NCBI GenBank assembly: GCA_028716705.1
Contig: JAQUPI010000006.1
Span: 1 to 52,332 of the forward strand
DNA length: 52,332 nucleotides
From: Candidatus Omnitrophota bacterium
Lineage (GTDB): Bacteria > Omnitrophota > Gorgyraeia > Gygaellales > Profunditerraquicolaceae
Reading direction: 5' to 3'
Part shown: positions 1-52,332 of the stretch, in pieces
Layout: each line of letters starts with the position of its first letter
Position numbering within the stretch: position 1 is the first letter of the stretch
Position numbers and translations under genes: made by a program
Notes under the pieces: generated by a model
Databases searched by the model: none
Told to the model about the DNA's origin: nothing
What the model saw: the letters and a program-made list of their open reading frames with translations, nothing else

Positions 1-890
1 ATCTTTTGCCTCTTTCAAGAACCAGGCCTTCGCGGTATTGGCGTTGGTCATGGTCTCCTGTGTAGTGAAGGTCTTGGAGGCGATAATAAAGAGTGTGGTC
101 TGCGGATTTAGTCCTTGGAGGGTCTCGGCGATGTGCGTTCCGTCAACATTTGAGACAAAATGGACCCTTAGATCTTTACGCGCGGCAAATTGCTTTAAGG
201 CCTCCGTGATCATTACCGGCCCTAAGTCTGAGCCGCCGATACCGATATTTACCACATCAGTGATGATCTTTCCCGTATAGCCTTTCCAGTCACCAGAGAT
301 GACCTTGCCTGAAAAATCCTTCATTTGGCCTAAGACAAGGTTCACGGCCGGCATCACGTCTTTACCGTCAACATAAATGGGGGTATTGGACTGGTTCCTT
401 AAGGCTATATGGAGCACGGCTCTATTTTCGGTCTGGTTGATCTTGACACCGGTAAACATCGCCTCGATAGCGCTCTTGAGGCCTATCTCATCGGCTAAGG
501 CGAGCAAGGAATCCAGCACATCTTTATCGATCAGGTTCTTGGAAAAGTCAAAGAGGATATCTCCTAAACGGATGGAATATTTGTTAAAACGCTCAGGGTC
601 AGCCTCGAACATCTGGCGCAGCTTGAGGTCCTTGGCATTCTTAAGCTCCTTGAGTCTGGCCCAGGCCTTTGTGGTGGTCGGGTTGGTGGCGGGTAGAGCG
701 GTCACGGCGGAAACCTCCTTGTTACTAGAAATTTTAACACTATTCTCAGATAAATCTACAGATTTCTTCGTTTCCCCTGCGGCTAGGAAAAATACCCTTG
801 CCCTCATTACCACATCGTCTTTTAAGAAAACATTTTCCACCCTCAACTCATTCTTCAATGTTTCTGTGATAAATTCCGCGTATTGAGAAG
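1..890 (-). other. pgi: Glucose-6-phosphate isomerase, N-terminal part (cut by window edge)
   Basis: Classical Pgi starts about residue [17 protein letters not shown], then [50 protein letters not shown] (217-246), [19 protein letters not shown] and [20 protein letters not shown]. These are near-identical to enterobacterial-type Pgi motifs, including sugar-phosphate loop SKTFTT. The rest, with catalytic Glu and Lys, lies beyond position 1. It converts glucose-6-P and fructose-6-P. An AAGGAGG followed eight bases later by GTG (703-705) stands exactly at its start, so it may be expressed alone. About 60 residues before the GTG link it to UPF0489 copy B without a stop. Confidence 0.93.
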
Positions 891-3800
891 GAGTGTAGAC
901 GGGAGCGCTGATCGCTACCGTAACCACTGCCGGTTTCAGTCCTTTGCCGACCAGGTTGCTGATCAATGAATTAATATTCTTGCGAAGCTCTTTTTGTATC
1001 GGTTCTCTATAATTCGCGTCTCCATCAAAAGAACCGAACATAACTCTCTTCGGTTTTCCTTCTATAGCCATCCAGGCTGAAGATGTCCAGCCTTCGTTGT
1101 CTAATACGTTTACCATGAAGTAATCCTCATCGATATCCAATATAACCGGCCTGGTCTCTTTGCCAAAGTCCGGCAATTCATGATCGTGCACATAGTGGAT
1201 CTTTACCGTTTTGTTTATTGACTTTCCGGAAATAACAATCTCTTCCTTATTTTCAGTTCTGCGGTTATCTTTGGTATCAAACTCCGGGACTACCATATAG
1301 ATCTCATCGATCAACCCAAAGGTGACCGCCGGCATTATGAAATGGGCTACATCATATTCTACTTTCTGCGCCTCTTCTATTGTTTTGGGCCTGTCTTCCA
1401 TCTTATAGGGAAGCATTAGGTCATTGTGGGAATCGATATGCACAAGCACAGCCCCATCGGTAAGCCGGCCCTCTAAACGTGTCTTTTCCCAATATGAATA
1501 AGCCTGCCCGTGCTCTGAGGATATATATAAAGGAGTGCCGTTTGCGCCTATATATTCGTTCTCTAACTTCAGGTTTTGATCGTGGGATTGTCCTTGTAAT
1601 GCGCCTAATTCGTGAAGTATGGTTAAGGCAAGTTCGAAGGGATTATTGAGGATGGATTCGTCGAGGTAAAGGATGTCTTCATAAATTACGCCGAAGAAGA
1701 GCTCAAATGGCCCTGCGCGTAATTTACCCTGGTCAGCCAAAAGCTTAGCCAACCCGGTGATCCAAGTTTGGCGGCCGGTAACTCTCAGGAATTCATTTAC
1801 CGACACAGCGGCGTTGAAAATATTTTCATATTCTACATTTGTAAGCATGCGGATATGTTTCTGATCCAACTCCTGCATAACCAGCGCCTCAGATAAAGGC
1901 AGGCCTGTCTTTGAACGGGCATGGTCTGATCTTTGGGCTCTTTTGCGGATGGCTAACGCGTAAACATCTTTTGCGTATCTTTGCTCCATCGCCTCAGCTG
2001 TGACCTTGGAACTTGCCAGATAGGAATTATGCATCAGATGCTTCCATTGAGCTTTGTCGGCATAAAATAACCCTGACGCTATTTCAAGCTTTTCAAAGAT
2101 ATCGACGGGAGCTTTACGATAGAAAAGCGCGTCGTCTGAAACTACGCCACCTTGATTAAGTTTAGTATATGATCCCAGCAGGAATCCGCTTCCTTTGCGT
2201 GTAAGTACGTCATAATCCATTATCCATTCCACGGGCCCCGCTCCGCTTATGGCGATATTCACTCCTCCATTCACCCCTGTCCTCTGATCCGAAGTTCCAC
2301 ATGCCTCTTCCAGCGGCCTGGGCATATTAATGCACAAGTCAGCTCCGATCGCCTGCATTTTAAGAAGCCTTGCGTCTGAATCGGGGACATAGACAAACTT
2401 TCCCTTTAACTCCGGTAACTGCGACCATCTCTTAAACTCATCCACCCAGAATTTCATATACTCAGGGCCGCCTATCACAACCTGCATTCCCAGCCCGTTT
2501 ACGTATTCCCTATTTTTGAAAATATAGCCGAGCACTGCCTCGGTCAGTTCTTTATTGTAATCGGACTGCAGATCAGGCGTAAGCTTGAACATCATATCCC
2601 TAAGCTGCTCTTTGTTAAAACGGCTTTCCCGCTCAGCGCAAATAAGACCGACCAGGAATCTTAACATCGGATACTGGCTCTTATAATCCACGATCCTCCT
2701 TATCGCCCAAAGCGTCTGCTTGTCCGGGTCAAGCTTGACCCCTGTCCTTGCTTCAACTTCCCGATAAGCGATTATTTTTCCTTCCTCATGGATATCCCAA
2801 AGCTCTTCTTCTGCGGGGATTATCCCTCTTTCTTCAAGATGCAATAACCGGTCATTCTTCCACGTTTTACCTGAACCGTTAAGAATACCCACTACGTTAA
2901 CCGCGAAATCCTGTCCATACATAGACTTAAATAATTTCTCCGTTGCCTTGGCGTGCTCTTGGCTTACGCCGTTTATCACATCAGCAAGGTGAGCGGCGGC
3001 ATAGCAAAAATCAACCACGCCATTCGGCCTTAAGAATCTTGACCTGAAGTCGCAGGCTTTTTCTTCGGGTATGCCGATCTGATACATCATGCGGTTGACA
3101 TCGGTTTTCAATACGCCGGAATAGAATATCTCCAATCCCGAAGGAACAATGGTATGATTAGTGTAAACAATGGCTGTCTTCTCGAAATCGTGATCTTCCG
3201 CTCTTAATCGCGCGGCAGCTACAACCGTGTGCGCTTCATTTAAATGCAATATATCGGGAGTAATATGGAGCCGCTTAAGAAGTTCGAAAGCCGCCTTTCC
3301 AAAGACGATCTCCTGCGCAAACCGGCATACCCTATCCTCTGTGTACAGGATATCGAAGATGGGCGACCTTAAGATAAAATCAACCGTTCCTCCGCGGATA
3401 ATTTTCCAAACATCCACACCGATTAAAGGATTATTGCAGGCATTATGCGGGTCGTTATTATCCCAGGCATAAACCTGTATGGTAAGCGGGATATTTTCTG
3501 ATTCATAAACTCTTTGCATAATGCCCTTATTTATCAGCTCGTCATAATCCACATCAACTGCCATTCCTGCCTTTAGCCTCTTTGCGTATCCCGGCTGGAT
3601 ACCATACGCCTTTATGCCAACTTCAAAAAGGCCCTCTAATTTATCTCCGAAGTATGCTCCCAATCCGCCCTTAGTATTGGCATCCTGGGCTTCAAAACGC
3701 TCAAACTCCGGAATATTGCCTTCCATTGAGATAGTAACTAACACTTTATCCATAAGTTCGGGGACATTTCTATTAAGCCATACAAAAGCGTTAGAGTCCC

Positions 3801-6800
3801 TAACTGCCTCATTCTCATCTCTTATCCCCTTTACAATATGGCTGATCAGTTCATGATAGAGGATCTCAAGCTGTTTGGATTCGGGAAGGCTGAAGAAGTA
3901 AGGATGGATATATACTGCGGCAAAATGTATCTCACAGTTCGCGATCTTTCCGCGGGTGAATCTCGGGTCTGTTGTAATTATCAGTCTCCATTTCGGAGGC
4001 GCCCTGCCGGCAAGCTGTTTGAGCTGTTCTAATCTTTGCCTGAGAACCTCGTAATGATCATCCAGGAACTGCTCCGCCGATCTTACATTGAACCCTTCTA
4101 CTTCAACCTCGGTTAAAATTCTCTCCTTGCCATATTTTTGCTCTGCCTGTTTCTGGTCGTTTTCGGACACAGTGAGAGGATAGGTGTTGGGTTCATCTGA
4201 CTTTGAGCGGGCAGGGCCATTTAGTCCATAATTTTCCCGTGGTATTCTAATCAATTCCGAATTATACCAAGTTTGGTCGTGATAAGTAACATTTTTAATT
4301 AAAACGTAAGTAGCTAATTTCCTGAAGAAAATTTCAATCATAAACGTTTCATAAACTCCTGGATATTTGTCACTGGAATAATTAATATTATAAGGACCAG
4401 CCCTCTCGCCCCCTGAATTCATAATTGAAAATGCATTATTTAAAACTTCATTTTCTACGTAATATCTTAATTCCGTTTTCTTTCCAAATAAAGCTTCTTC
4501 AAGCGATGCAGAAACCTCTACGCTCTCCCAAGCAATTTGATTCATTATAGTTTGCGGAATAATGAAAGAGAAGCTATCTTTGAGTATATATTCCTTAGTA
4601 TCATAGTCATACATTATCGGATAATTTATATCGTAAAAGCTAATTATTATTTCCTCATCTAATACCAATAAAGAAATTGTAAAATATTTGCCATTATTAT
4701 CTTCGTCGAGACCAAAAGGAACAACATAACGAGAACCCTTTGCTATCTTGGCAACGGTCCTTCTTATAGCCTTTATAATATTATCATTTATAGCAACGCT
4801 TTTTTCTTTAAGCTCATTGCAAATCGCTGAAGTAATTAACTTTTCTATATTATCGAAATCAATCTGGTTAATTTTAGTTTTGCGATCTTCCGAAATTTTG
4901 GCTGATGGATCTGAGAATTTATGGATTTCGGATTGAATTGCTTGCTCATCTTTTCCTAACTTTTTACCTATTTCTAATAATATATCATGTATCACATGGG
5001 CATAAAGATTATCTCTAACTATATCCAGATTAATATCTTTTGATTTTATCAAATAAGCTACGATCTTTGCGTGCTCTGCTAGTAATTCTTCATACGCAAA
5101 AAGGCTATATCTTTCTTTAGCTCTTTGTTTTTCAGTATCGTAGTTAAAATCTAAATTCAAAATAGAAATGGTCTTGTCTTCAATAAGAATATCCTCTTCT
5201 TCCGCAATATAAATTACGCCTGAAGCCGCATCCATTACAATCATATCTCCTTCTCTAAACTCATAATTTCCAATCTTTAGCTTATCTCCTTCGAGCTTAG
5301 CATTTTCAATGGTATCTATTAAAGGTACCGCCTGACTTCTCGCGAGTACGCTTTCATGTAGAGCTTCATGACCATATTGAGTAATGATCCCTGAAACAAA
5401 ACCACTCAAAATAGCACTTTCTATTTGGTCAGGTCTATTAAAACAGACTAAAATCGCACTTCTTCCTCGAGATTCTGATTCTCTTGCTTCCTCAAGACTA
5501 AATACTATACTACCAAATGCAACTCCATAAGACGACGGGATTCCCCTTGAAATCATAGTAAGTTTTGCGCCTTCGCGAACCTTATATACCTTTTTATTCT
5601 TTTGCAAATTGCTTATTTTCTCGAACTCATTTAACATTTTAAACTGAGTAATTATTCCTTCCCTTACCATATCAAAGGCAACCTTCGCTGAAGCTTTAAG
5701 AGATAGAACTGCATTTCTGGTCTGTAATATCCACAGAATACCATTTTCTATCACAAATTCGATCTCTTGAACTGCCCCAAATTCTTTCTCAAGCTTTAAT
5801 TTTATGTTCTCTAATTGTTTATATATTTCTGGAAATATTTCTGCTAATTGCTCTACAGGTTTAATGGTAATGCCGCTCCTGTCTACTATATCCTGTCCTT
5901 TGGCTTTCAAGGCAAACCCTCCTGAAAGCTTGTTCAGTCCTGTAATTACATCTCTTGTAAATAATACTCCGGCACCTGAATTTTCATTTTTATCGCCATT
6001 AACCATAACCTGAATTATTACTCCCATTCCTCCTGCTTGAATATTATTTTTGTTGCGAAATTCAATAGCCTCTGGTTTATTCCACGACCCTTTTACCATC
6101 TTAAAAGCTTCTATTAGACTCTCTTTACTAGAAATATCTGTAATAGTAAGTAACAATCCTGGCATAGAAACAGAAGGCGAACTCCTTACAGATAATGTTA
6201 AATCTTTTCCTAATTGTTTTCCTGTCTGAAATTCAATCCAAGAAATGAAACCATTTATTGAATTTAATATTCTTTCTTCAGTTATATTCTCAGAAACAAC
6301 TACGCCCAAAGGCACAGGCAAATTGAACTGGATTAATTTTGTTAAATTGAAGGCTTTTGAACCGGCAATCGTATTTGGTACATTTTTTCTAACTCTTTGT
6401 GCCAAAGGCAGATAAATGTCTTCTTGTAGATTTATATTTTCTAACAGCAAGTGGTTATAAACAGATAGATCCGCTGAACTTAATTCAAATAATTCACCCT
6501 TTTTGGTTTTAAGTACTTTTAGGCCGCCTAAGCGCTTAGATATAGATTCTATATTCTGCCTTGTTAGGAATATTGCTTCATAATTGTATACCCCGAAGAC
6601 ATGATGCCAAGGATAATCCACCGTTTCTCCTTTCTCATATTCGAGGGAACCTTCAGGCAAAACTTGAGCTATCCAATATAAGATTTCTTTATTAAAATGA
6701 TTCTCCGGATAAATCTTGTAAACATTAAACAATATTTCTTCTTTTACTTTATTTGCTAATTCTAGCATTGAAACTAATCCGATTCCGAAATTAACCCACT

Positions 6801-43800: not shown

Positions 43801-46800
43801 TTGTGCCGTTGATCTTGTAGACGGGCGTGCTGTTATTGCGGGCGTGCAGGAGTCTTGCGATAACGCCGTAGCGTTCGCCGCCGTAGAGCTGTTCCCAGGA
43901 ATCGATCCTGCCGTTACGCGTATATACGTTTCCCGTAGAAGCGTTAACAAGAAAGATGCGTAAATGCCCGTTACCGTTCTCGCGCGCAGTAGCGAAGACA
44001 GTGTTGTCTTGAGTAAATTCAACAATGTGGTCAATTTCGAGTACATCATAATTAATATTGACCTTGTACATGTTACACCTCCTCTTATTTTTTGTACCAA
44101 GCGCCTTCCGAGGGTCAGAACGCCGGAGGTACGGCGCCGGAAGGCGCTCAGCACAAAAATAGCCGCTTTTAATCCAGTACCTGCCACGGTAGGCTGGACA
44201 ATCTGCGGCTGGGTTAAATTTATATTTTCTTTATGGGTTAATTCCGGATACAGGACTGCGTTTATTTCGTGGATTACTTCATTTATTGAAGCATTTTCAG
44301 GAAGGATAATATAGATAACACCTTGTTCTAAGTAGTTTGCAGCGCCTAATTGAGGCGGACCGCGGGTAAAATGCACTCCCTTCGCGGATAAACGATCGAG
44401 GATTTCTTCAGAGATACCATATAAAGCCTGAACCTGGGCAAGGGTAAGTTCGCCATATTTTGCTATAATGCCTTTTATACCGCCGTATTCATTCGCTAAT
44501 TTCTTTACTTCTTCTCTGGATCTGCCTTCTGCTGAAGCGTCTTTTGGCTCATCATTTACAGCTCCAGCACCCTTGCTCCCGTTTCCTGCATCCAGCGCAT
44601 CCATTCCCGCTCTTGTCCCATCTGTTCCTGCCTTCTTAACCTCATATCCGCTACCAGATATTCTGTCTGCAACGCCTTCACTTCCGCCTCCCACCAACCC
44701 ATATCCATCTTTAACATTTGTCTCCTCCTTTTTAGTTCTTTCTCGGTTGAAAATCTTTCCCAGGAAAGAACGGGAAGGAGGCCCTTGAGGAGGAGCTGTG
44801 GTCTCGATCTTTTCGACCTGAGGATTGCTGAGCTTGCCTGTTTCTTTTAAGACTTTATCCGCTGCATTTTCTACATTATTGAGCGTTCTTTCGACGGTCC
44901 CTTTGCCTTGGGCATACTCTTCTTTTACGTTAACTTGTACTGTTGGAGCAGGGTTAACCGTGAAAGCGCTTTCTTTTTTCTTCTCCGGCTGTGCTGACCG
45001 TGTGGGATTGGAAGCGCTTTCTTTATTATTTCCCACTAGTATTCCACCAACCAGACCATAATGATTCAAATTGTAATTATTAATATTAAAACTGGCTTGG
45101 AATTGAGCAGGCACATACAAGGTTATTCTCTTTAAAGCTGGATTAGTTTCAATCTGAGGCTTATTATCTGATAACTTACTACCTATGTGGTCAGCTATAT
45201 TATATAAATCTGGATCTGCGATTTTTAGCTGATCTTTTGCAACTTCAAAATCTTTGCTACTTCCAACATATAACTGAACATGTAAATATCTTTCATTTGA
45301 AAAATTGGAGGCTACAGAGAAATTTGAACCAGAGAATTGTATAACTTTTACATCGTATGATCTTCCGTTTACTATTGCTTTATCGGTTCCCATGCCCTTA
45401 ATAGAAAGCGTGGTGTCTATTCCATCTATATCTCCATGGCCTCTGCCGAAATAACCCGCCACCTTCCTCCCCTGTTTCCTAACGGCCTTTATGTGTCTTG
45501 TCGCATTTTCTGTAAGAGTTTTTATTGAATCTAATAAACTAATAGTCCCAGGCCCCATATTCATCTCTTTAAGAGCACAGCCGTGTATTCTAATACCTAA
45601 ATCTGCTGCAGCCACTACCATTAATAACATATCGTCTCTGTTCCTTATCCAAGTCAGATTTTCTTTTAAGTAAGGTAGCGATCCGGAATCCAATTTTGTC
45701 CTTAACCATTTAATTTTATTCAGCCAATAATATTCCCGTGCAGCCCTTTCAAATCCTATATCATAGCCTTCTTTTTCGCTTGCAAACCATTTATATTCAT
45801 CCAATTCTTTACTAGAAACTTGTTTGATAAAATCTCCTAATGAAGGGAATTCTCTAAGGAAATTGAGTACATTATCCCAATTCTCGCCAACCTGGCAAGT
45901 TACGATCTCTGTCACTAAATCATTGATTCCAAGTTTTGAAGGTAAATTTACCAGTATGTTCGTGATAAACCAAGTTTCGGTAAATGTAAGAGAATGTACT
46001 TCATCAAATATTAAAACGTCGTTACTTTCAGCCTTATTGAATAAATCATTTACTACCCCACCTTGAATGTTTCTAAAGGCATCTAAATTTTCCTGCGAAT
46101 CGTTAACTTTTACTGAGGATTCATTTATTTGTTCAGATTGTTCTAAGCCGCCCTGGATGTTCCTAAAGCTATACAAGGGCTCCTGCGTCTCCTTAGAAAT
46201 ATTGGTTTTAGCTGAAATCAATTTCTCAAAACCGCCTTGTATGTTCCTAACTGAATCTAAGGACTCCTGGGGTACTATATAATTACTTGGCTTAGTATGA
46301 GCTGATTGCTCAAGACCACCTTGAATATTTCTATAAAGATTTAGGGATTCTTGCGAAGGATTTATGTCAGAATATGCTTGATGAGATATAAATTTGGAGG
46401 GGTTTTCAGGCACAAAGCGATCCAGTGGCGGACCGCGTATAGATTCGACAACGTGTCTCCATATATTTTTCGTTTCTTTCGCCAGCGCCTTGATCCTGGT
46501 GTATACCAAGTTAACCAACACCTGGATCTTCTTGCCTGCACCGGCAAAAGGATTACGCTTGCTATTTTCTGGCTTGACCTCCAGGGCATTGTAAGCCGGT
46601 AAACTCCTATCTTCAGGAGTTACACCCTTGGAACCGCGGGTTCTTTCGGAATTGCGATGGACGAACAATCCCTTAAGAGCCTTTATCAGGCGATTCAACA
46701 AGCTCGCGTCAGGGCCGAATCCGGTTCTCTTGGAACCTTTATTGGAACCAGAGCCAGTTCCCTGGCCAGCGTATGCGGCTACACTTTCTCCGCTGTCCTT

Positions 46801-49800: not shown

Positions 49801-52332
49801 TGTAGGCTTAACCAAAGCTTCCCATTTCGCCTGATCGGATAAAATATCGTTTAGTTTGGCTTCGTTTAATATCTCGGAATCCGTATAATCTACTTCCGCC
49901 CTTAATTTACTGATCTCAACTAATTGCGCGATGTAACGATCCAGGGATTCGCCGTTTAAGGTTGAAGAATCGGGCACTTCAGCTTTAATCGATTTTTCTT
50001 TAGCATCCAACTGCCCGAACATGCGCGCTCTTTCCGCCTGGCTATCTTGAATGCCCTGTATTACGTTGCGGATCGACTCTTTTAATCTTTCTACTCCGTC
50101 AGAGAATGCCTGCGCTTTTCCTAAACCCCTGTAAAGCAGGATGGCGTCTTCGGTTGCCTGCGGCAAAAGATCCGGATCATCTTTGGCCGTAAGCTGGGCG
50201 ATCTTATTTAGATCGGAGTAGCTGATCTCGCCGCTTGCGCTGGGCGTCAATCCCGCGGCCGTAATCTCCTGAGCCTGAGCATTCAATTCCTGGAGCCCTT
50301 GCAAGGCTTTTTGCCACATCAATCTTTGTCTTGGCCCTTTAAATTGTGAAAGGAGCAGCTGGAATTGAGAAAAGGCATTTTCCCCGATAAGACTAGCCAA
50401 TGCCTGCGCATCCCCGGCTATCTTATTTACCACGGCCGGGGGGATAAATTGGTTTCTGCCCGGCTGCCATTCACCGGCGCTGATACCTGCTTTTTCCAGT
50501 ACCGCCAAGCCCGAATTGACCTTATTCAATTGGTTCATCTGGCGGGAAACTTCCCAAGTCGTCATATCAAACGGACTTCCGGCAATCTCTGAATTATTAT
50601 AAATCCAATCCGCGGCAACTCCGGCGGTGGTGGAAACCCTAACCAATTCATCCGGTTTAAGAGAATCAAGAGCCGCGCCTTTACGTTTTAAATTATATAT
50701 ACCTCCGCCTACCGTCTCTTGGAATTCATTAGTGCTCATCAGGCTGGAAGTAAACCAGGGAATAAGATCTTCCGCGGCCAAGGTAGTCGCGCTCAGGGTA
50801 GCAGACCTGGCGACTTCAGCTAGTTGAGCCATGGTAGGCTGTGATTCTTCAATTGACCTGTTAGCCTTCATCATGTTCCTTTGATTAAGTTTTTGAGCGC
50901 CGTCTTCAACGTTTAAATTAATAGATAGCGATCTTAATTGGTCGTAGGCTTGCTGCTGGCGCAAAATAACGGATTGGGCACGGGACTTAAATTCGGTATA
51001 TCTTTGGTCGTCAGGCAAAGATTTCAGAAGCACCTTACCTAAAATATAAGGCGCGCGATTAAGCTTTAATTCTCCCATCGCTTGTTTAAGATCTTCAATA
51101 TCTACACGCTGAGAAAACGCTTCGGGAGCGATATTTGCCATTTGTCCAAATTGCACTATATTGCTGAGGGTTTGGCCTTTATCTCCCAAAGAAATAAGGC
51201 TATTTTTGGATAACTGGTCTATTGCCCGGAATAATTGATGAGGAGATAACGCCGTAGTTATAACGTTCTGGGGCCGGTCAAGATCAAGCCCTTTCAAAGA
51301 ATTAAGCGCTGCGGAAAGGTTATTTTGCACGGAATGGGAAGATCTAATCACCATTAAAACATTATCTGCTACTGATTGGCCTCTTGCCGATAACATTGCG
51401 TTATCTGTTTCCAAAAGCGTGCGGTTTTGCTGGGTGAAATCAGAAATGAACTGCGGTATTTGAGATCTGGCAATAGCCCCTGCCTCGGCTAATCTCGTTG
51501 CAAAATCATTAACAGTAACAGGCGGCGGGCCCCGCGTGATATTGGCCCTCGGAGAGAATTCGTTCGTAGATACCGTTACTGTTGACCTATAACCTCCCTT
51601 TTCCAATAGTTGGCCTTCATTAAAATCTCTTACTTTGGGCATTATTAAATCCAATAATTCTGTGGTATAACCGCTTTTCTCGAACATCTGTTTGGCTCCG
51701 GCTGTAGATTCTATCGCGGTCTTTACATTGGGATTGGTAGCCAAACTCTTTTCGCTATAAATCAAATGTAAACGTCTAAGGCCGGGGTCATTTCCCAGGC
51801 TGGGGAATCTTCGGCCGGGAACAACCCCATCAGGGGTCAAGCCGATACGGGCAGAAAATTGCACTATATCTGTATCTGTCCATCTGTCCGGGTTAATCGC
51901 GATGGCGTCCACACCGCCTTTGGCGATACCGCCTGCTTCAGGAAAATTAACGCCTCTTCCTATGCTGCGCGGGCTGCCTATTACCCAAGGCGCCTTTTGC
52001 ACAGGTACACCTTTTAAATCCCGCTCCAGAACGTCGAGCAAGAGTTTTGTGGGTGTCTGCCAACCGACAAGGATTATTTTTCTGGGATTATCGCCTCTGA
52101 CAAACGCATTTCTGATTATCCTGTTTTCCGCATTATTATTGGAAGCGAGTATCTTCTGGCTTGTTGGATGATTTATTCCCAATTCCTTGATCACCGCTAT
52201 CTGTCCTTTGATATCCTTAGAAATCGCTTCAGAAGAAGTCCGGGGGATACCCATGGGCGGCTTGCCGTCGATCTGGAAATTCAGGGCACGCATATGCGCC
52301 TCTACAGCTGAAGAACGGGTAGCGCGGACTCC
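1..52332 (-). CDS. Giant multidomain protein, partial at both ends
   Basis: A single frame on the minus strand, with codons on positions 1-3, 4-6 and so on, has no TAA, TAG or TGA in any of the 17,444 triplets I read. No start or stop is inside the window in this frame, so the gene is longer than 52.3 kb here. Domains recognised along the frame include a SecA-like helicase part, M48 peptidase, glycosidase-like, phosphoglucomutase, glycogen synthase, glycogen phosphorylase-like and glucose-6-phosphate isomerase domains, each described below. Such proteins are known from Omnitrophota. The main doubt is 43.78-44.15 kb, where the frame is open but the translation looks non-coding and another frame carries a gene-like ORF. 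The window may therefore hold two giant genes joined in frame by a small indel, assembly error or real fusion. Confidence 0.85.
703..720 (-). promoter_or_regulatory. Internal Shine-Dalgarno and GTG at the start of the Pgi domain
   Basis: On the minus strand AAGGAGG (714-720), eight bases, then GTG (703-705). Spacing and sequence are ideal for initiation and the site lies within a few residues of where free-standing Pgi proteins begin. It could be a relict of the time when pgi was a separate gene or a working internal start. The same bases encode Lys-Glu-Val in the giant frame, so chance is possible. Confidence 0.45.
890..1560 (-). other. UPF0489-like domain, copy B
   Basis: About 220 residues: [31 protein letters not shown] (HIDSHNDL 1417-1440), [24 protein letters not shown] and [20 protein letters not shown]. 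The His/Asp motif and the DIDEDYF motif match copy A at 40530-41180 and the UPF0489 family. Copy B looks more complete in its metal residues. Confidence 0.7.
1560..1850 (-). other. Short helical part with [12 protein letters not shown]
   Basis: About 95 residues joining the phosphorylase and UPF0489 copy [18 protein letters not shown] ([12 protein letters not shown] at 1579-1614) has a His-Glu pair and a later His-Asp, compatible with a metal site, but no HExxH. Unassigned. Confidence 0.35.
1850..3780 (-). other. glgP: Glycogen/alpha-glucan phosphorylase-like domain (GT35)
   Basis: About 640 residues. Features of alpha-glucan phosphorylases: [20 protein letters not shown] with [22 protein letters not shown] (HLNEAHT 3226-3246), [42 protein letters not shown] and [15 protein letters not shown] (2281-2307) with [11 protein letters not shown]. 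The family uses phosphate and PLP to release glucose-1-P from glycogen. In the E-A-x-G-T-S-x-x-K motif the Lys that forms the PLP Schiff base is Arg here (codon AGG at 2281-2283), so PLP may be bound differently or lost. Product would feed the phosphoglucomutase domain. Confidence 0.8.
3780..4210 (-). other. HELISH zinc-binding domain, copy 2
   Basis: Duplicate of the 8770-9200 domain: [33 protein letters not shown] (RAPP at 3994-4005), [20 protein letters not shown] and HELISH (3838-3855). Identity between copies is high along the whole length. Both copies stand just before a new enzyme (Nudix, glycogen phosphorylase), so the module may be a recurring spacer-peptidase unit. Confidence 0.6.
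4210..5120 (-). other. Unrecognised AT-rich domain
   Basis: About 300 residues replacing the C-terminal barrel of a dikinase. Helical first half ([19 protein letters not shown]), then strand-rich part ([20 protein letters not shown]). No motif recognised. Ends in [17 protein letters not shown], the same lead-in as HELIGH copy 1. Confidence 0.35.
5120..6430 (-). other. PEP synthase/PPDK-like domain, N-terminal and phosphohistidine parts
   Basis: About 435 residues. ATP-grasp signatures: [12 protein letters not shown] (6157-6192), [13 protein letters not shown], and [20 protein letters not shown] near 5710-5770. Then the swivelling phosphohistidine domain: [33 protein letters not shown] and [17 protein letters not shown] with the candidate catalytic His at 5356-5358. 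The PEP/pyruvate-binding TIM barrel expected in PpsA/PPDK does not follow; the next part is unrelated. It may act as a dikinase on another phosphoryl acceptor, for example like glucan water dikinases, given the glycogen context. That last point is inference. Confidence 0.7.
6430..8190 (-). other. Unrecognised AT-rich region with an internal duplication
   Basis: About 585 residues. Two halves share a pattern: [34 protein letters not shown] and a [16 protein letters not shown] stretch (7500-7700), against [28 protein letters not shown] with [12 protein letters not shown] and [12 protein letters not shown] (6570-6790). Spacing is comparable, so this is a diverged tandem duplication. No catalytic motif identified. 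Clearly more AT-rich than the glycogen enzymes. Confidence 0.45.
8190..8770 (-). other. Nudix hydrolase-like domain
   Basis: About 190 residues. [20 protein letters not shown] then [20 protein letters not shown] is the typical start of IDI-like Nudix proteins, and [13 protein letters not shown] plus IELKEEL (around 8360-8450) stands for the Nudix box with the Arg replaced and the Glu-Glu pair kept. It might hydrolyse a nucleotide-sugar or similar diphosphate, but the box is degenerate. Confidence 0.65.
8770..9200 (-). other. HELIGH zinc-binding domain, copy 1
   Basis: About 140 residues: [20 protein letters not shown] then a [13 protein letters not shown] segment (RAPP at 8968-8979), [20 protein letters not shown] and HELIGH (8812-8829) followed by an Asp/Glu-rich helix. 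HExxH plus acidic residues downstream suggest a zinc peptidase-like site. An obvious duplicate lies at 3780-4200. Family not known to me. Confidence 0.6.
9200..10280 (-). other. Phosphodiester-glycosidase-like (NAGPA) region
   Basis: About 340 residues. The part 9300-9480 shows [29 protein letters not shown] and [17 protein letters not shown], comparable to the 'A(L/M)NLDGGGSSxLxxxG' end of NAGPA-type phosphodiester glycosidases, which cleave sugar-phosphodiester bonds. The Asn-Gly-Gly-Asp core fits, the Gly-Ser-Ser does not. The N-terminal part ([20 protein letters not shown]) is unassigned. Confidence 0.35.
10280..11160 (-). other. Two cupin-like domains
   Basis: Two small beta-barrel segments: [20 protein letters not shown] then [19 protein letters not shown] (10840-11000), and [20 protein letters not shown] then [17 protein letters not shown] (10400-10580). 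The 'xGxxxV ... GDxxxxxxxxxH/Rxxx' layout matches cupins; the second ends in GHKVEF as in sugar-isomerase-related WxcM/cupin_2 proteins. Role in sugar modification or binding is inferred only. Confidence 0.5.
11160..12740 (-). other. glgA: Glycogen synthase domain (GT5)
   Basis: About 525 residues, full length. N-terminal ADP-glucose/glucan motif KVGGQGDV (12646-12669) after [11 protein letters not shown]; then [76 protein letters not shown] and the C-terminal donor-site motif EPSGLTQ (11458-11478) with [18 protein letters not shown]. All hallmark residues of bacterial GT5 glycogen/starch synthases are present, so it should extend alpha-1,4-glucan from a nucleotide-glucose. The UDPGP-like domains upstream would provide UDP-glucose, while bacterial GlgA usually uses ADP-glucose; donor choice is open. 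Confidence 0.93.
12740..13060 (-). other. Starch/glycogen-binding-like beta domain
   Basis: About 105 residues: [49 protein letters not shown] and [14 protein letters not shown]. Regular strand pattern with conserved Trp residues, just before glycogen synthase, as in CBM20/CBM53-type domains that precede starch synthases. It may hold the glucan near the synthase. Confidence 0.5.
13060..14120 (-). other. Unrecognised domain with HEAVE motif
   Basis: About 350 residues. Near the start is [16 protein letters not shown] (HEAVE at 13765-13779) followed by [13 protein letters not shown], a His-Glu-x-x-Glu pattern that might bind metal. Then comes an alpha/beta part with [20 protein letters not shown] and a [12 protein letters not shown] segment. 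No family assigned. Confidence 0.35.
14120..14870 (-). other. Transmembrane segment plus AT-rich insert
   Basis: A hydrophobic helix ([20 protein letters not shown], about 14690-14760) followed by basic [12 protein letters not shown], then about 150 residues of AT-rich sequence with [20 protein letters not shown] and a coiled [16 protein letters not shown] end. Composition differs visibly from the enzymes on both sides, suggesting a later insertion between the isomerase and the next block. Not recognised. Confidence 0.5.
14870..16665 (-). other. Glucose-6-phosphate isomerase-like domain (SIS type)
   Basis: About 595 residues. Carries the phosphosugar-isomerase signatures GMGGSGLS (16390-16413), SKSGTTQET (16207-16233), a DIGGRFT loop near 16030 and [17 protein letters not shown] near 15800. 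This pattern is that of the isomerase half of transaldolase/glucose-6-phosphate isomerase fusions, rather than of classical Pgi. It would turn glucose-6-P, made by the adjacent mutase, into fructose-6-P. A second, classical Pgi domain begins at 705 in the same frame, so the protein has two unrelated-looking versions of this step. Confidence 0.75.
16665..18470 (-). other. UTP-glucose-1-phosphate uridylyltransferase-like domain, copy 2
   Basis: About 600 residues, clearly a duplicate of copy 1: the same [20 protein letters not shown] loop, [29 protein letters not shown] (around 17641-17670), [55 protein letters not shown] and the closing beta module ([19 protein letters not shown]). Differences concentrate in loops, so both copies seem under constraint. 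Role as for copy 1. Confidence 0.6.
18470..20095 (-). other. pgm: Phosphoglucomutase/phosphomannomutase domain
   Basis: A complete alpha-D-phosphohexomutase of about 540 residues. It starts [12 protein letters not shown], has the active-site phosphoserine loop TASHNP (19720-19737), metal loop DGDADR (19210-19227), sugar-binding loop GEESAH (18955-18972) and phosphate loop RPSGTEP (18577-18597), all in the right order and spacing. It interconverts glucose-1-P and glucose-6-P. GEESAH with full-length spacing favours phosphoglucomutase over phosphomannomutase. It lies between two uridylyltransferase-like copies and just before a phosphoglucose isomerase domain, so one polypeptide holds the branch point of glycogen metabolism. 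All key residues look intact. Confidence 0.93.
20095..21920 (-). other. UTP-glucose-1-phosphate uridylyltransferase-like domain, copy 1
   Basis: About 605 residues. Motifs follow the UDPGP (PF01704-type) layout in divergent form: [18 protein letters not shown] in place of the nucleotide-binding 'GGxGT' loop, then [28 protein letters not shown] (21073-21111) for the sugar-nucleotide site, [32 protein letters not shown] and [14 protein letters not shown] beta-solenoid-like module closes it. It would form UDP-glucose from UTP and glucose-1-P. Divergence from textbook enzymes leaves activity and nucleotide choice open. It directly precedes phosphoglucomutase, which makes its substrate. Confidence 0.6.
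21920..22440 (-). other. Beta domain with an extra copy of the UDPGP-type C-terminal module
   Basis: After a DGPP motif (22420-22431) and a strand-rich part, residues coded at about 21930-22110 read [48 protein letters not shown] and [10 protein letters not shown]. The same module ends both uridylyltransferase-like copies (about 20095-20285 and 16680-16870). Here it stands before copy 1 without a catalytic part, as if a third copy had lost its N-terminal domain. Confidence 0.6.
22440..23540 (-). other. Long coiled-coil rod
   Basis: About 365 residues almost free of Pro and Gly, rich in Glu, Lys, Leu, Ala, Ile and Arg with heptad-like hydrophobic spacing (for example [60 protein letters not shown]). 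It probably forms a rigid spacer between the membrane half and the carbohydrate-enzyme half of the protein. Confidence 0.75.
23540..23950 (-). other. TPR domain
   Basis: [27 protein letters not shown] and [22 protein letters not shown] show two clear tetratricopeptide units, with a third weaker one ([18 protein letters not shown]). A Pro-rich linker ([13 protein letters not shown]) separates it from the GNAT domain. TPRs serve as protein-binding scaffolds. Confidence 0.7.
23950..24475 (-). other. GNAT-type N-acetyltransferase-like domain
   Basis: About 150 residues with the GNAT order: [18 protein letters not shown] (strand pair), [20 protein letters not shown] (beta4 plus degenerate acetyl-CoA loop, Q-x-A-G-x-x-F-G), [20 protein letters not shown] and a [11 protein letters not shown] end. 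The P-loop is close to (R/Q)-x-x-G-x-(G/A), so CoA binding is plausible. Substrate unknown. Confidence 0.6.
24475..25040 (-). other. Small beta domain and Lys/Glu-rich linker
   Basis: About 110 residues of strand-rich sequence ([40 protein letters not shown]) that may be PilZ-like in build, followed by an extremely charged Lys/Glu/Thr linker (about 24480-24600). The linker marks the border with the GNAT domain. Confidence 0.35.
25040..28060 (-). other. Polytopic membrane region, possible glycosyltransferase-like
   Basis: Hydrophobic helices cluster at about 27610-27960 (for example [19 protein letters not shown] and [19 protein letters not shown]) and at 25070-25720 ([50 protein letters not shown]). 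Between them lies a soluble part with [38 protein letters not shown] and [18 protein letters not shown] then [17 protein letters not shown]. The GED...Q...W...EW order with following helices vaguely recalls membrane glycosyltransferases (cellulose synthase or NdvB type), but no clear DxD/TED/QxxRW set is present. Treat as unassigned membrane enzyme. Confidence 0.3.
28060..29740 (-). other. Large helical region between membrane segments
   Basis: About 560 residues, helical, with two copies of an '[21 protein letters not shown]' / '[20 protein letters not shown]' phrase (near 29500-29560 and 29290-29370) that suggests an internal duplication. Otherwise unrecognised. Topology suggests cytoplasmic location. 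Confidence 0.35.
29740..29840 (-). other. Transmembrane helix with basic inner end
   Basis: [19 protein letters not shown] followed by [13 protein letters not shown]. Positive-inside bias puts the following region (lower coordinates) in the cytoplasm and the preceding beta-rich and repeat regions outside. Confidence 0.7.
30000..31920 (-). other. Large beta-rich domain, unrecognised
   Basis: About 640 residues dominated by short strands with Tyr, Asp, Gly and Asn turns, for example [18 protein letters not shown] and [18 protein letters not shown], and [19 protein letters not shown]. These phrases are reminiscent of YD- or WG-type beta repeats but no regular period is clear. Its N-terminal part follows directly from the ILGYY repeats. 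Confidence 0.35.
31920..33480 (-). repeat. Six ~81-101-residue repeats ([23 protein letters not shown])
   Basis: Six units share LSDTQKxKVxSILAIF, [18 protein letters not shown], [13 protein letters not shown] and [12 protein letters not shown]. The Gly of the ILGYY motif is coded at 33330, 33028, 32770, 32527, 32260 and 31981, i.e. 243-302 bp apart. The last unit is most diverged. No known fold assigned; beta-rich with aromatic residues, compatible with ligand binding or a surface stalk. Confidence 0.8.
33480..34830 (-). repeat. Three ~135-165-residue repeats (VDLD / WLFNPA / GILYD)
   Basis: Three long units each run: F(F/Y)(N/D)V(D/N)L, LIDxLLxS, WLFNPAxxTxDxNxYxxFL, a Y(K/Q)-x-F motif and GILY(D/N)x(D/N)G. 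Unit starts near 34796, 34387 and 33893. The middle unit has an insertion with a second partial WLYNPAS. The GILYxxDG ending is also the ending of the next repeat family, suggesting common origin. Confidence 0.7.
34830..35880 (-). repeat. Six tandem ~58-residue repeats ([15 protein letters not shown])
   Basis: Six units share the consensus [29 protein letters not shown], [14 protein letters not shown] and PMHQAV. The conserved Trp codon falls at 35749, 35575, 35401, 35242, 35068 and 34894, giving spacings of 174, 174, 159, 174 and 174 bp. The fourth unit is five residues shorter. Function unknown; similar in build to extracellular stalk or adhesion repeats. DNA identity between units is visible by eye, so the array is recent or homogenised. 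Confidence 0.85.
35880..37020 (-). other. Helical region before the repeat arrays
   Basis: About 380 residues, mostly helical, Ala/Leu/Glu/Lys-rich, without motif I can name. Short modules with [14 protein letters not shown] and [15 protein letters not shown] phrases at the end resemble degenerate versions of the repeats that follow. Confidence 0.35.
37020..37130 (-). other. Signal-peptide-like segment
   Basis: [36 protein letters not shown]: basic residues, hydrophobic core, then Ala-x-Ala. This is the textbook layout of a cleavable signal peptide, here about 5,070 residues into the window's protein. It precedes the repeat-rich region, which could therefore be extracytoplasmic. Confidence 0.6.
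37130..37660 (-). other. Third HExxH domain (HEKAH) with transmembrane anchor
   Basis: Hydrophobic segment [20 protein letters not shown] (about 37560-37630), then [10 protein letters not shown] (RAPP at 37504-37515), then a short alpha/beta part ending in [25 protein letters not shown] lies at 37312-37326 and a Glu about eight residues later could be the third zinc ligand. It resembles small M48/M56-like zinc peptidases. Short for a full enzyme. Confidence 0.45.
37660..37880 (-). other. Internal sorting-signal-like block (LPGSG - hydrophobic - KKNKRK)
   Basis: The stretch [20 protein letters not shown] is followed by a short hydrophobic span (STGFIFGMV) and then a strongly basic tail [19 protein letters not shown]. 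This order, a Leu-Pro motif, a hydrophobic helix and a positive tail, is that of C-terminal surface-sorting signals (LPXTG or PEP-CTERM type), yet here the frame goes on. It may mark the end of a formerly separate exported glycosidase. Confidence 0.45.
37880..38350 (-). other. Pro/Thr linker and carbohydrate-binding beta-sandwich
   Basis: A short Pro/Thr linker (38240-38350) leads to about 115 residues of beta-sandwich character: [33 protein letters not shown] and [13 protein letters not shown]. The 'I-x-G-Y-x-x-L-x-I-x-V-x-G ... W/F-x-x-I-x-I-P ... I-x-x-I' layout matches CBM11/CIA30-like ligand-binding domains found next to glycoside hydrolases. Confidence 0.55.
38350..39720 (-). other. Six-hairpin glycosidase-like domain
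   Basis: About 455 residues. Aromatic-rich helical hairpins with repeated '[17 protein letters not shown]', '[12 protein letters not shown]', '[14 protein letters not shown]', '[20 protein letters not shown]', '[15 protein letters not shown]' and '[13 protein letters not shown]' phrases, as in (alpha/alpha)6-barrel sugar hydrolases. Acidic residues suitable for catalysis occur in the Glu-Asn-Ala-Trp and His-Asp-Gln motifs, but I cannot pick the catalytic pair or the GH family. The Pro/Thr stalk before it and the carbohydrate-binding module after it support an exported polysaccharide-acting role. Confidence 0.6.
39720..39990 (-). other. Lipoprotein-like signal and Pro/Thr-rich linker
   Basis: A hydrophobic segment, [16 protein letters not shown], is followed by NSSC (Cys at 39892-39894) and then a long Pro/Thr/Val linker to about 39720. 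The layout (hydrophobic core, Ser-Ser-Cys, Pro/Thr stalk, then a glycosidase-like domain) is that of an exported lipoprotein, but the lipobox is weak and lies deep inside a giant chain, so it may simply be a transmembrane helix. The Pro/Thr linker gives a Gly/Val-rich shadow frame on the plus strand. Confidence 0.55.
40000..40530 (-). other. Unrecognised domain ([12 protein letters not shown])
   Basis: About 175 residues. Visible are [18 protein letters not shown], then [20 protein letters not shown], a [14 protein letters not shown] strand region and a helical end. Alpha/beta composition, no metal or nucleotide motif I can name. It follows UPF0489 copy A and precedes a secretion-like signal, so it probably ends a cytosolic-type block. 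Confidence 0.35.
40530..41180 (-). other. UPF0489-like domain, copy A
   Basis: About 215 residues. Motifs in order: [20 protein letters not shown], then [11 protein letters not shown] (41044-41067), [11 protein letters not shown] and [13 protein letters not shown] near 40700. The HIDxHxDL-type His/Asp motif and the late DxD motif match the UPF0489 family, which has an arginase/deacetylase-like metal site but no established substrate. A second copy is at 890-1560, 40 kb away in the same frame. Confidence 0.65.
41650..42440 (-). other. Second HExxH domain (HEYKH) with membrane segments
   Basis: Helical region containing [11 protein letters not shown] (RGPP at 41995-42006) and then [13 protein letters not shown] (HEYKH at 41875-41889) followed about 10 residues later by EEEAYMAQ, which fits a gluzincin-like HExxH...E zinc site. 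Downstream are two hydrophobic segments (about 41660-41815). This looks like a second, divergent M48/M56-like peptidase. Catalytic Glu is present; activity is not proven. Confidence 0.5.
42440..42985 (-). other. Helical region, HEAT-like
   Basis: About 180 residues of alternating amphipathic helices (for example [20 protein letters not shown]). The '[14 protein letters not shown]' type of phrase is common in HEAT/PBS-lyase repeats, which form protein-binding solenoids. Only about two units are visible. Confidence 0.35.
42985..43190 (-). other. Two transmembrane segments after M48 domain
   Basis: Two hydrophobic stretches: one ending [15 protein letters not shown] (about 43095-43165) and one, [18 protein letters not shown] (about 42995-43065), separated by an Ala/Pro-rich loop, followed by a basic KEKRRAK stretch. 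The first resembles a cleavable signal segment because of the Ala-x-Ala end. They would anchor the peptidase domain in the membrane. Confidence 0.65.
43190..43800 (-). other. M48-family zinc metallopeptidase domain
   Basis: About 200 residues. Carries the gluzincin signature: zinc ligands in HELAH (43528-43542) within [18 protein letters not shown], and the third ligand in NEYAADQLA (Glu at 43426-43428), at the spacing usual for M48 (HtpX/Ste24) peptidases. The [13 protein letters not shown] segment near 43210-43280 matches the 'THP...R' end of M48 domains. HtpX-type enzymes are membrane-bound and work in quality control; this one is followed by two hydrophobic segments. It could process the giant chain itself, but nothing in the sequence shows that. 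Confidence 0.85.
43781..44071 (-). CDS. 96-residue hypothetical protein overlapping the giant frame
   Basis: ATG at 44071 with a strong Shine-Dalgarno, stop TAA at 43781-43783. The product begins [19 protein letters not shown] and ends [10 protein letters not shown]; it has balanced, hydrophilic, protein-like composition and no signal peptide or membrane segment. I do not recognise the family. The giant frame over the same bases is Leu/Ser/Thr/Arg-rich and looks like an antiphase shadow, so this ORF is the better coding candidate here. It overlaps by 20 bases a GTG (43798-43800) in the giant frame that could start the M48 coding block, a typical operon-style overlap. If it is real, the giant frame across it is either accidental or a recent fusion. 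Confidence 0.6.
44077..44083 (-). promoter_or_regulatory. Shine-Dalgarno site of the 96-residue ORF
   Basis: AGGAGGT on the minus strand, five bases before the ATG at 44071. This is a near-consensus site at ideal spacing and decides the start of the small ORF. Read in the giant frame the same bases give a Lys-Ile-Arg-Gly-Gly-Val stretch. Confidence 0.65.
44100..44148 (-). repeat. Perfect 11-bp inverted repeat with nested 5-bp stem
   Basis: AGCGCCTTCCG (44100-44110) pairs exactly with CGGAAGGCGCT (44138-44148); inside the loop CGCCG (44121-44125) pairs with CGGCG (44132-44136). It is much more GC-rich than its surroundings. It sits just below an out-of-frame TGA (44148-44150) and about 17 bases above the Shine-Dalgarno of the 96-residue ORF on the minus strand. 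No T-run follows on the minus strand, so it is not a classical intrinsic terminator; it may act as a 3'-end stabiliser, attenuator or leader structure. Confidence 0.75.
44151..44550 (-). other. Small unrecognised domain at the end of the upstream coding block
   Basis: About 130 residues with ordinary protein composition: [18 protein letters not shown], a short helical stretch, FTRGPPQLG (RGPP at 44353-44364), a predicted strand [12 protein letters not shown] and a helix [15 protein letters not shown]. It ends at [10 protein letters not shown] near 44160, after which the same frame loses coding character. A single-base slip in the run of five T (minus strand; A at 44155-44159) would place a TGA at 44148-44150. 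This may be the true C-terminus of an upstream giant gene. Confidence 0.45.
44550..45090 (-). other. Linker with duplicated YGLVGG motif
   Basis: A polar region rich in Gly, Lys, Glu, Ser and Thr. YGLVGG occurs twice, at 45043-45060 and 44686-44703, and PPQGPPSRS (44776-44787) is another GPP motif. Between 44556 and 44717 an alternative frame opens with an apparent Shine-Dalgarno and ATG, but its Trp/Met-rich product looks like a shadow of the Gly-rich linker. Confidence 0.5.
45090..46030 (-). other. ChaN/TraB/EreA-like (Tiki superfamily) domain
   Basis: About 310 residues. Shows a pattern known from the ChaN / TraB / erythromycin-esterase superfamily: an N-terminal [11 protein letters not shown] (DEVH at 45994-46005), a central [19 protein letters not shown] with an Arg-Asn-Arg-Asp core, and a C-terminal [11 protein letters not shown] (GRGHG at 45433-45447) equivalent to the 'GxGH' metal-binding motif. 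Members bind haem or metals or hydrolyse esters and peptides. Which substrate is used here cannot be told. Base composition is more AT-rich than the enzyme-coding parts. Confidence 0.5.
46030..46400 (-). repeat. Four tandem ~28-residue repeats with RNIQGG core
   Basis: The hexapeptide RNIQGG is encoded at 46315-46332, 46231-46248, 46147-46164 and 46057-46074, spaced 84, 84 and 90 bp. Each core is preceded by a Q/P-E-(S/P/N)-L-x-x-(Y/V/F/A) stretch and followed by a variable polar segment. The repeat sits between a linker and the ChaN/TraB-like domain and may be a flexible spacer or binding array. The codons differ between copies, so the protein sequence is conserved more than the DNA. Confidence 0.8.
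46400..47395 (-). other. Low-complexity linker with glycine-zipper hydrophobic block
   Basis: About 330 residues, rich in Ser, Asn, Pro and Gly, without a recognisable enzyme fold. It contains HGPP (47077-47088) and ends with IRGPPLDRF (RGPP at 46426-46437). Between about 46800 and 47020 lies a strongly hydrophobic Gly/Ala block, [16 protein letters not shown] and [16 protein letters not shown] with GxxxG-type spacing, enough for two transmembrane helices. Glycine zippers occur in membrane-inserting and pore-forming proteins; here only membrane association is inferred. Confidence 0.5.
47395..48890 (-). other. Unrecognised alpha/beta domain (VARDAG / IDSFGTAST)
   Basis: About 500 residues. 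A helical N-terminal half leads to a region with Rossmann-like beta-strand/loop signatures: [13 protein letters not shown] near 48020-48060, SLIYVSAST near 47940, [12 protein letters not shown] near 47700 and [10 protein letters not shown] near 47600. The combination 'VARD(A/G)xYYL ... YVSxS ... IDSFGTxxT' recalls uncharacterised domains attached to bacterial cell-surface glycosyltransferases (FLARDGY ... YLYVSRR ... DIGWxGT). It could also be phosphoribosyltransferase-like. No firm assignment. Confidence 0.3.
48890..49390 (-). other. Helical segment with TPR-like pair
   Basis: About 165 residues. After a Leu-rich amphipathic stretch, residues around 48900-49150 read like a tetratricopeptide unit: [20 protein letters not shown] followed by [11 protein letters not shown] and [12 protein letters not shown], with the small-residue and aromatic spacing of TPR helices. 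TPRs bind peptides or partner proteins; no partner can be named. Directly precedes the Rossmann-like domain. Confidence 0.4.
49390..51640 (-). other. Long helical region, function unknown
   Basis: About 750 residues with mostly helical, polar composition. It starts after the helicase-like part with an RGPPP motif (51520-51534). The stretch 49560-50190 is rich in Glu, Lys, Gln and Arg and looks coiled-coil prone. It ends in an Ala/Pro/Thr/Glu linker (about 49380-49490) typical of a domain border. No catalytic motif seen. I do not recognise the family; a SecA-type accessory or scaffold role is only a guess from position. Confidence 0.4.
51640..52332 (-). other. SecA/DEAD-like helicase C-terminal part (domain, cut by window edge)
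   Basis: The first ~230 residues resemble the second RecA fold of SecA-type ATPases. Visible are an [12 protein letters not shown] stretch where SecA has its domain-entry strand, a [13 protein letters not shown] segment, the motif V-like [13 protein letters not shown] (GRG around 51955) and a degenerate motif VI reading QFSARIGL followed by GRRF near 51810-51860 instead of QxxGRxGR. The ATP-binding half (Walker A and B) would lie upstream, beyond 52332. The altered motif VI means ATPase activity cannot be assumed. Alternative: a more general DEAD-like helicase remnant. Confidence 0.55.

Follow-up and report, generated by a model that had tools for sequence, protein, structure and literature searches.

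Giant open reading frames are an established feature of the Omnitrophota. According to Seymour et al. 2023 (PMC10066038), ORFs of >20 kb occur in 77/116 Velamenicoccia genomes and their functions are poorly understood. The giant ORF of "Ca. Velamenicoccus archaeovorus" in the same account encodes 39,678 aa with 42 predicted transmembrane helices (PMC10066038). In later papers the giants reach about 85,800 aa, and surface weapons and a possible processing are mentioned.

West-Roberts et al. (bioRxiv 2023; cited in PMC12057145 and PMC13104272) have reportedly also described giant genes, in Omnitrophota as well as in other bacteria. These are said to include a divergent SecA DEAD helicase domain and to have type II secretion and carbohydrate-import genes nearby. 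The giant gene described here was found in a window of 52,332 bases, the whole stretch of DNA that was analysed. It shares with those giants the phylum, the length class, many hydrophobic segments, carbohydrate-related domains and neighbouring T2SS and sugar-import genes, and a SecA-like helicase is a candidate. The giant of V. archaeovorus, as described, is alike in its giant size, its many predicted membrane helices, its predatory omnitrophotal host and its proposed extracellular location; by the same description it is set apart as a proposed coat that degrades surface polysaccharides. The host family of our giant belongs to the Omnitrophota, and the gene is a new member of a class already reported there. 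What seems to be new is the content: intracellular-type sugar-phosphate and glycogen enzymes in the giant and fused glycolytic genes with signal-like N-termini nearby, an apparent difference from the West-Roberts giants as reported.

The window is exactly contig C6 of a draft genome (G000) of 1,873,309 bases (1.87 Mb) in 90 contigs, 93.6% complete. The computed translation of the minus strand, begun at base 52332 and carried through to base 1, contains 0 stops in 17,444 codons, which bears out the stop-free frame reported by the first-pass annotation. The other five frames have 628 to 1,353 stops each, with mean runs of 12.9 to 27.8 codons, and at their stop densities the probability of zero stops is 10^-278 or less. 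The single frame covers 52,332 bases in the window alone, against the >20 kb used by Seymour et al., and because the window is the whole contig it is open at both contig ends. Scored by the codon usage of 76 ordinary ORFs from this genome, 164/173 half-overlapping segments of 600 bases are best in the open frame; in the nine exceptions another frame is ahead by at most 0.09 log units per codon. Furthermore, dN is 0.155-0.60 and dS 1.4 or more in all nine blocks compared with relatives (4 in the window, 2 on C56 and 3 on C3, picked for good alignment; dS saturated in 4). The frame is coding throughout the window, and it is selectively constrained.

The prediction that the frame runs past both edges was also correct, with in-frame continuation on contigs C51 and C56, which like contig C3 lie outside the window. 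C56 is open over all its 3,035 codons and continues the C6 frame; a glucose-6-phosphate isomerase (PGI) domain is divided between the two (PF00342 positions 1-180 on C6, 178-486 on C56), and their ends have 15 bases in common. The final 126 bases of C56 equal C3 bases 121-246, in the same frame and inside a repeated module. The frame on C3 extends over 13,510 codons to a TAA, and C3 is probably the continuation holding the stop. Since the module at the C56-C3 join is repeated, further units are possibly missing there. At the other side, the C51 frame (1,474 codons) has a positively charged hydrophobic start, followed by a C39 peptidase domain, and ends inside a helicase-like domain continued on C6. 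No exact overlap between C51 and C6 was detected by script; 7/8 end bases agree by eye. Joined directly, in an order that we infer rather than read through, the contigs C51, C6, C56 and C3 give a protein of about 35,370 aa and 4.0 MDa. The part translated in the window amounts to 1,960 kDa, so that the earlier figure of at least 1.9 MDa holds for the window but understates the whole gene. The window represents the central part of a single, real giant gene, of which start, neighbours and counterparts are mapped. The repeated module at the C56 end and C3:1-246, whose protein copies are 46-87% identical, breaks the assembly.

The C39 domain (PF03412, 32 bits vs a curated cut-off of 22) spans residues 127-250 of the C51 frame, and the Cys, His and Asp positions of this predicted peptidase are seemingly kept, judged by eye in an alignment that includes genomes G014 and G114. 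A simple hydropathy cut revealed 28 hydrophobic segments over C6, C56 and C3 (14+2+12) and none on C51; the N-terminal segment of the giant lies below a stricter 19-residue cut for membrane segments.

Counterparts were sought in a set of 117 genomes, G000 included. G014 holds a single frame of at least 57,756 codons (with 100 N) with counterparts of C51, C6, C56 and C3, and its 13 blocks follow the contig order of G000 with a rank correlation of 0.89. The corresponding values are 0.63 for 19 blocks in G037 and 0.6, not significant, for 5 blocks in G033, the frame of which has at least 57,099 codons. The giants of G113 (45,379 codons, both ends in a single-contig genome) and G076 (42,913 codons, both ends in one contig, with 100 N) have just one block each in common with G000. 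A length of 70,450 codons for G037 was rejected, because 24,000 of its residues are unread and the figure is unusable as a length. A profile of the N-terminal signal/C39 region, built from G014 and G114, matched in 61/117 genomes, in 23 of these 61 inside frames of at least 5,000 codons; some matches are partial and weak, that in G113 included (E 6e-4). Three profile matches have one internal TAA (G016:C7, G004:C18 and G083:C60). On contig C11, suspected of holding a second giant of G000, the longest frame is only 1,343 codons, presumably a glutamate synthase, and the candidate was rejected.

With frames of 42,913 to at least 57,756 codons in relatives, the placement of the gene among the largest proteins, of the kind known from Omnitrophota, was well founded. 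The accompanying claim of recognisable domains from end to end held in part: strong domains are present, mostly in the C-terminal half, and when the window was scanned as 19 overlapping pieces, each some 1,000 residues long, five were without a Pfam match at E <= 0.01. The features identified are collected in Table 1. TPR-like stretches are also present on C6, and the divergent PGI-like domain reaches 18.1 bits with the Pfam PGI model, below its cut-off of 22. C56 encodes the rest of the PGI, a DUF1152 domain and HD and RelA/SpoT matches below cut-off. The part of the giant on C3 encodes a sugar transferase, methyltransferases, a cofactor-independent phosphoglycerate mutase (iPGM), PCMT, winged-helix, HEAT and TPR repeats and a VTT domain.

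Table 1. Features of the giant ORF in the window, in order of translation, and fused ORFs downstream on contig C3
Feature	Position	Strand	Evidence or remark
Central 17,444 codons of the giant ORF (whole C6)	1..52332	-	About residues 1,471-18,912 of an estimated 35,370
Candidate divergent SF2/SecA-like helicase domain, C-terminal half	51553..52332	-	Motif reading
[AG]PP ... HE module	44233..44361	-	Motif search
M48 metallopeptidase domain	43234..43449	-	PF01435, 44.4 bits
Internal signal-peptide-like hydrophobic segment	43093..43185	-	Hydropathy; one of 14 on C6
[AG]PP ... HEYKH module	41803..42003	-	Motif search
UPF0489 / peptide-arginase-like domain, copy 1	40846..41160	-	Profile search
Internal hydrophobic segment ending in lipobox-like cysteine	39883..39990	-	Hydropathy; cysteine by eye
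634-residue block	37813..39714	-	72% identical to G037 giant; dN 0.19, dS 2.2
[AG]PP ... HEKAH module	37243..37512	-	Motif search
Internal signal-peptide-like hydrophobic segment	37003..37125	-	Hydropathy
GNAT acetyltransferase domain	24049..24306	-	PF00583, 26 bits
UDP-glucose pyrophosphorylase-like domain, copy 1	20800..21267	-	PF01704, 20.6 bits, below cut-off 22
Phosphoglucomutase/phosphomannomutase (PGM), domains I-IV	18541..20031	-	TASHNP, DGDADR, RPSGTEP motifs kept
UDP-glucose pyrophosphorylase-like domain, copy 2	16870..17667	-	PF01704, 29.6 bits
Divergent glucose-6-phosphate isomerase-like domain, PRK09533-like	14914..16548	-	NF007080, 146 bits (own cut-off 712 not reached)
[AG]PP ... 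HE module	13693..13920	-	Motif search
Glycogen/starch synthase GlgA domain	11155..12699	-	TIGR02095, 359 bits vs cut-off 328; KxGG kept
[AG]PP ... HE module (HELIGH)	8743..9201	-	Motif search
NUDIX-like domain	8251..8625	-	19.0 bits, below cut-off 21.1
Pyruvate phosphate dikinase-like domain	5203..6285	-	PF01326, 90.8 bits; NF004531
[AG]PP ... HE module (HELISH)	3763..4212	-	Motif search; 59% identical to the 8743-9201 module over slightly longer segments
Alpha-glucan phosphorylase-family (GT35) domain	1939..3912	-	74% identical to one in G037
UPF0489 / peptide-arginase-like domain, copy 2	1114..1536	-	Profile search
Glucose-6-phosphate isomerase, N-terminal part	4..687	-	PF00342 positions 1-180; remainder on C56
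2503-aa ORF: PFK, GAPDH, PGK domains	C3:42633-50141		Profile search
1900-aa ORF: PPDK domains	C3, after the 2503-aa ORF		Profile search

The divergent SF2/SecA-like helicase is a candidate read from its motifs, with the Walker A sequence GSKGKT and DEAD lying upstream, on C51. Walker A/DEAD-like motifs are also found in G114 and, by pattern only, in G014. Residues 185-853 of C6, which overlap and follow the helicase-like half, align with G114 at 26.7% over 700 columns, and among the giants compared phmmer detected the region in G000 and G114 alone. No support for a helicase came from Pfam, NCBIfam, PDB sequence search or hhalign, hhalign giving a probability of 0.2 against the genome's own SecA. 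A structure prediction of the helicase-like half (mean pLDDT 32) was set aside.

Inspection of C3 revealed two fused glycolytic genes with signal-like N-termini, 2.1 kb past the stop of the giant, the order being a short ORF, a 518-aa protein, the 2503-aa ORF and the 1900-aa ORF. The phosphofructokinase (PFK) of the former carries the sequence KTMDND, which we take as a mark of pyrophosphate-type enzymes. Its PFK and GAPDH domains are separated by a GatZ/KbaZ-like aldolase segment (22.8 bits, below the cut-off of 26.7) and an additional GAPDH-like stretch; a PDB sequence search with the aldolase-like segment returned nothing usable. Its PGK domain is circularly permuted, profile positions 282-376 preceding 7-276. 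The two ORFs have a common C-terminal domain of about 280 residues, without a Pfam match and, for the copy in the 2503-aa ORF, without a PDB sequence match. Among all ORFs of at least 200 codons in the loci examined, this domain occurs in eight, a pair in each of G000, G001, G006 and G052, and always at a locus of this kind. Further downstream on C3 follow genes for a sugar-binding protein, a permease, a GPH/MFS transporter, a GH2-like protein and a ROK protein, and three more with no match or a TPR match only. Upstream, on C51, there are two T2SS F genes and two genes without a match. The giant of G113 is also flanked by T2SS F, sugar-binding protein and GH2-like genes.

A hydrophobic N-terminal stretch is present in 13/13 fused glycolytic ORFs with the N-terminus in view (9 PGK, 3 PPDK, 1 PGI). 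Signal peptides were judged by hydropathy and charge only, the hydrophobic criterion being a 14-residue stretch with a mean hydropathy of at least 1.75 within the first 90 residues, a threshold fixed after the first 12 fused ORFs had been measured (lowest 1.78). In G000, 23/87 ORFs of at least 300 codons pass it, and the chance for the first 12 at this background rate is ~1e-7, a rough value because of the way the threshold was chosen and because the genomes are related. The count leaves out the PGK frames of G034, G083, G084, G044 and G074 and some fragments without PGK, with starts beyond the contig end or outside the stretches taken. Free-standing PGK (402 codons), GlgA (488) and PPDK (913) are also encoded in G000, and all three lie below the threshold (0.34, 1.42 and 0.80, respectively).

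Fusions of this kind recur in relatives. G018 has PGK, GAPDH, TIM and enolase fused in 2,031 codons; PGK is fused to PPDK in G028, to TIM in G075 and to FBA in G008, and G006 has an FBA+PFK+GAPDH fusion and a separate PPDK ORF. The matches are in part partial, TIM covering the second half of the profile and the aldolase about a third to a half. G001, of the same genus as G000, has a PGK ORF and a PPDK ORF, and PGK also lies in frames of 12,767 (G083), 13,505 (G034) and 18,421 (G084) codons. The trait is patchy, since 103/117 genomes are without a PGK in a frame of at least 798 codons, leaving 14/117 with one. Matches to iPGM were found in 14/117 genomes, 12 of the 14 in frames of at least 816 codons. 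The same-genus genomes G002-G004 gave no PGK match at all, and G001-G004 no PGI match. A free-standing PGI of ~490 codons is common in the family and has no match in G000 or these four congeners.

We put forward, as a tentative reading that falls just short of evenly balanced, that the giant gene forms part of an exported system for carbohydrate metabolism, both export and activity being predicted from sequence. With greater reserve, we consider it possible that some predatory or epibiotic Omnitrophota have a second glycolysis outside the cytoplasm, in the form of exported multi-enzyme polypeptides. In this reading a single polypeptide of about 35,000 aa would be synthesised from the giant gene and leave the cytoplasm by the Sec route; hydrophobic segments would hold it in the envelope, and cleavage by its own peptidase domains may divide it into functional parts. 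The giant would supply PGI, PGM and phosphoglycerate mutase, and the neighbouring fusions other steps, so that the giant and its neighbours would form a second glycolytic set that processes glucan-derived sugar phosphates, whether in the periplasm, on the cell surface or within attacked cells. ATP would be spared by a PPi-type PFK (one motif), the cofactor-independent phosphoglycerate mutase and PPDK as the last step. Uptake of the products would fall to the sugar transporters of the neighbouring genes; the cytoplasm itself would rely on the free-standing copies. Movement of molecules into prey is thinkable by analogy with V. archaeovorus, whose intron RNA is reported from dead prey cells (PMC13153191), this being RNA and another species.

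Enolase and TIM domains had no match in the G000 frames scanned, which counts against a complete glycolytic set. ATP import through a TLC-type ATP/ADP translocase is not supported either, the gene being absent from G000 and weakly matched in 1/117 genomes; this counts against an exported glycolysis, as the translocase would have given the cell access to ATP produced outside. Literature queries yielded no relevant report of an exported glycolysis, for one of them among the best 8 of 175 matches. Should the enzymes be active at the location indicated by their N-termini, central carbon metabolism in these bacteria would extend beyond the cytoplasm, and giant genes, whose function has so far been vague, would gain a concrete biochemical role that can be assayed enzyme by enzyme. 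This would also bear on the feeding of ultra-small predatory bacteria. The mapped giant, with its start, neighbours and counterparts, offers a frame for testing processing and export.

Glycolytic enzymes outside the cytoplasm, predicted here, have a parallel in the leaderless moonlighting enzymes on bacterial surfaces. These are the ordinary cytoplasmic copy and lack a signal peptide, whereas here PGK and PPDK are second copies, fused and with the signal-like N-termini common to all 13 fused ORFs. The pyrophosphate-dependent glycolysis of Clostridium thermocellum is cytoplasmic and made up of separate enzymes, in contrast to the fused ORFs with signal-like N-termini. It is similar in that a PPi-type phosphofructokinase and PPDK belong to one pathway (PMC8863071), the PPi type in our case being read from one motif.

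The giant may also be a polyprotein, cut by its own C39, M48 and HE-motif peptidases into many proteins, each with its own fate. This is possible, though open to considerable doubt, and is compatible with an exported system rather than exclusive of it. The N-terminal C39 and the M48 domain, the internal signal-like segments and 15 [AG]PP...HE modules in the giant (6 on C6, 3 on C56, 6 on C3, none on C51) vs ~0.4 in shuffles are consistent with self-processing, which has been suggested earlier for such giants (PMC13104272, citing a preprint). However, no cleavage sites were identified, and the enrichment of the modules in the giants of G037 (8 vs 1.0) and G014 (11 vs 1.2) does not extend to those of G033, G113, G076 and G042 (0-1). 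Some modules have the form HExxxH (HELIGH, HELISH), others HExxH or neither; the HExxxH spacing is presumably that of M49 peptidases. A structure prediction of an HE module gave a mean pLDDT of 42 and was set aside.

A giant that acts chiefly as surface coat, adhesin or predation weapon, with captured enzyme domains used for binding or structure rather than metabolism, is somewhat unlikely. Catalytic motifs, searched as what we take to be the family motifs, are kept in eight enzymes, namely PGI, PGM, PGK, GAPDH, PFK, PPDK (that of the 1900-aa ORF), iPGM and GlgA, and the recurrence of one pathway's enzymes in fused signal-bearing ORFs of several genera likewise argues for metabolism. The phosphorylase-like GT35 domain fits a structural role better: the PLP-binding lysine expected of an alpha-glucan phosphorylase is replaced in both G000 and G037, and the high identity between the two domains in spite of this suggests that it is kept for some other use. 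Nor was the TSHA motif found in the giant's own PPDK-like domain. Also in favour of a coat, the giants align over scattered domains only, and a role as coat and predation tool has been proposed for the Velamenicoccus giant (PMC10066038).

Could the hydrophobic N-terminus merely anchor a metabolic mega-enzyme whose domains face the cytoplasm? The only PGI and iPGM of G000 above threshold sit in the giant and might be needed in the cytoplasm. A cytoplasmic form of the two fusions of G000 is conceivable as well, because the stretch from the signal-like segment to the first enzyme domain contains possible starts (ATG, GTG, TTG), four in the 2503-aa and one in the 1900-aa ORF. We nevertheless regard a cytoplasmic location as improbable: positive charges precede the hydrophobic segments, an orientation that would export what follows, and GlgA, PGK and PPDK exist in free-standing form besides.

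The enzyme domains resemble stand-alone proteins, which would suit a row of several ordinary genes with separate internal starts in a frame that is merely stop-free. This is very improbable. In-frame start codons with a Shine-Dalgarno-like sequence number 25 in the window vs 38.7 +- 5.7 in 100 synonymous shuffles, a depletion that is the opposite of what hidden genes would produce, and the fused state is found in relatives too. An assembly artefact, a chimera or a contig polished free of stops, might be suspected in a draft of so many contigs and can be dismissed as extremely improbable, given the absence of stops over 52 kb, the in-frame continuation on other contigs, the coding signal and purifying selection, and frames of similar size in other assemblies, including a genome that is a single contig.

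The PGI at the start of C56 (residues 1-345) is 79% identical to the PGIs in the giants of G042 and G009 and up to 70% identical to PGIs of Bacteroidota, and on account of these identities the PGI of the giant may have been acquired horizontally.
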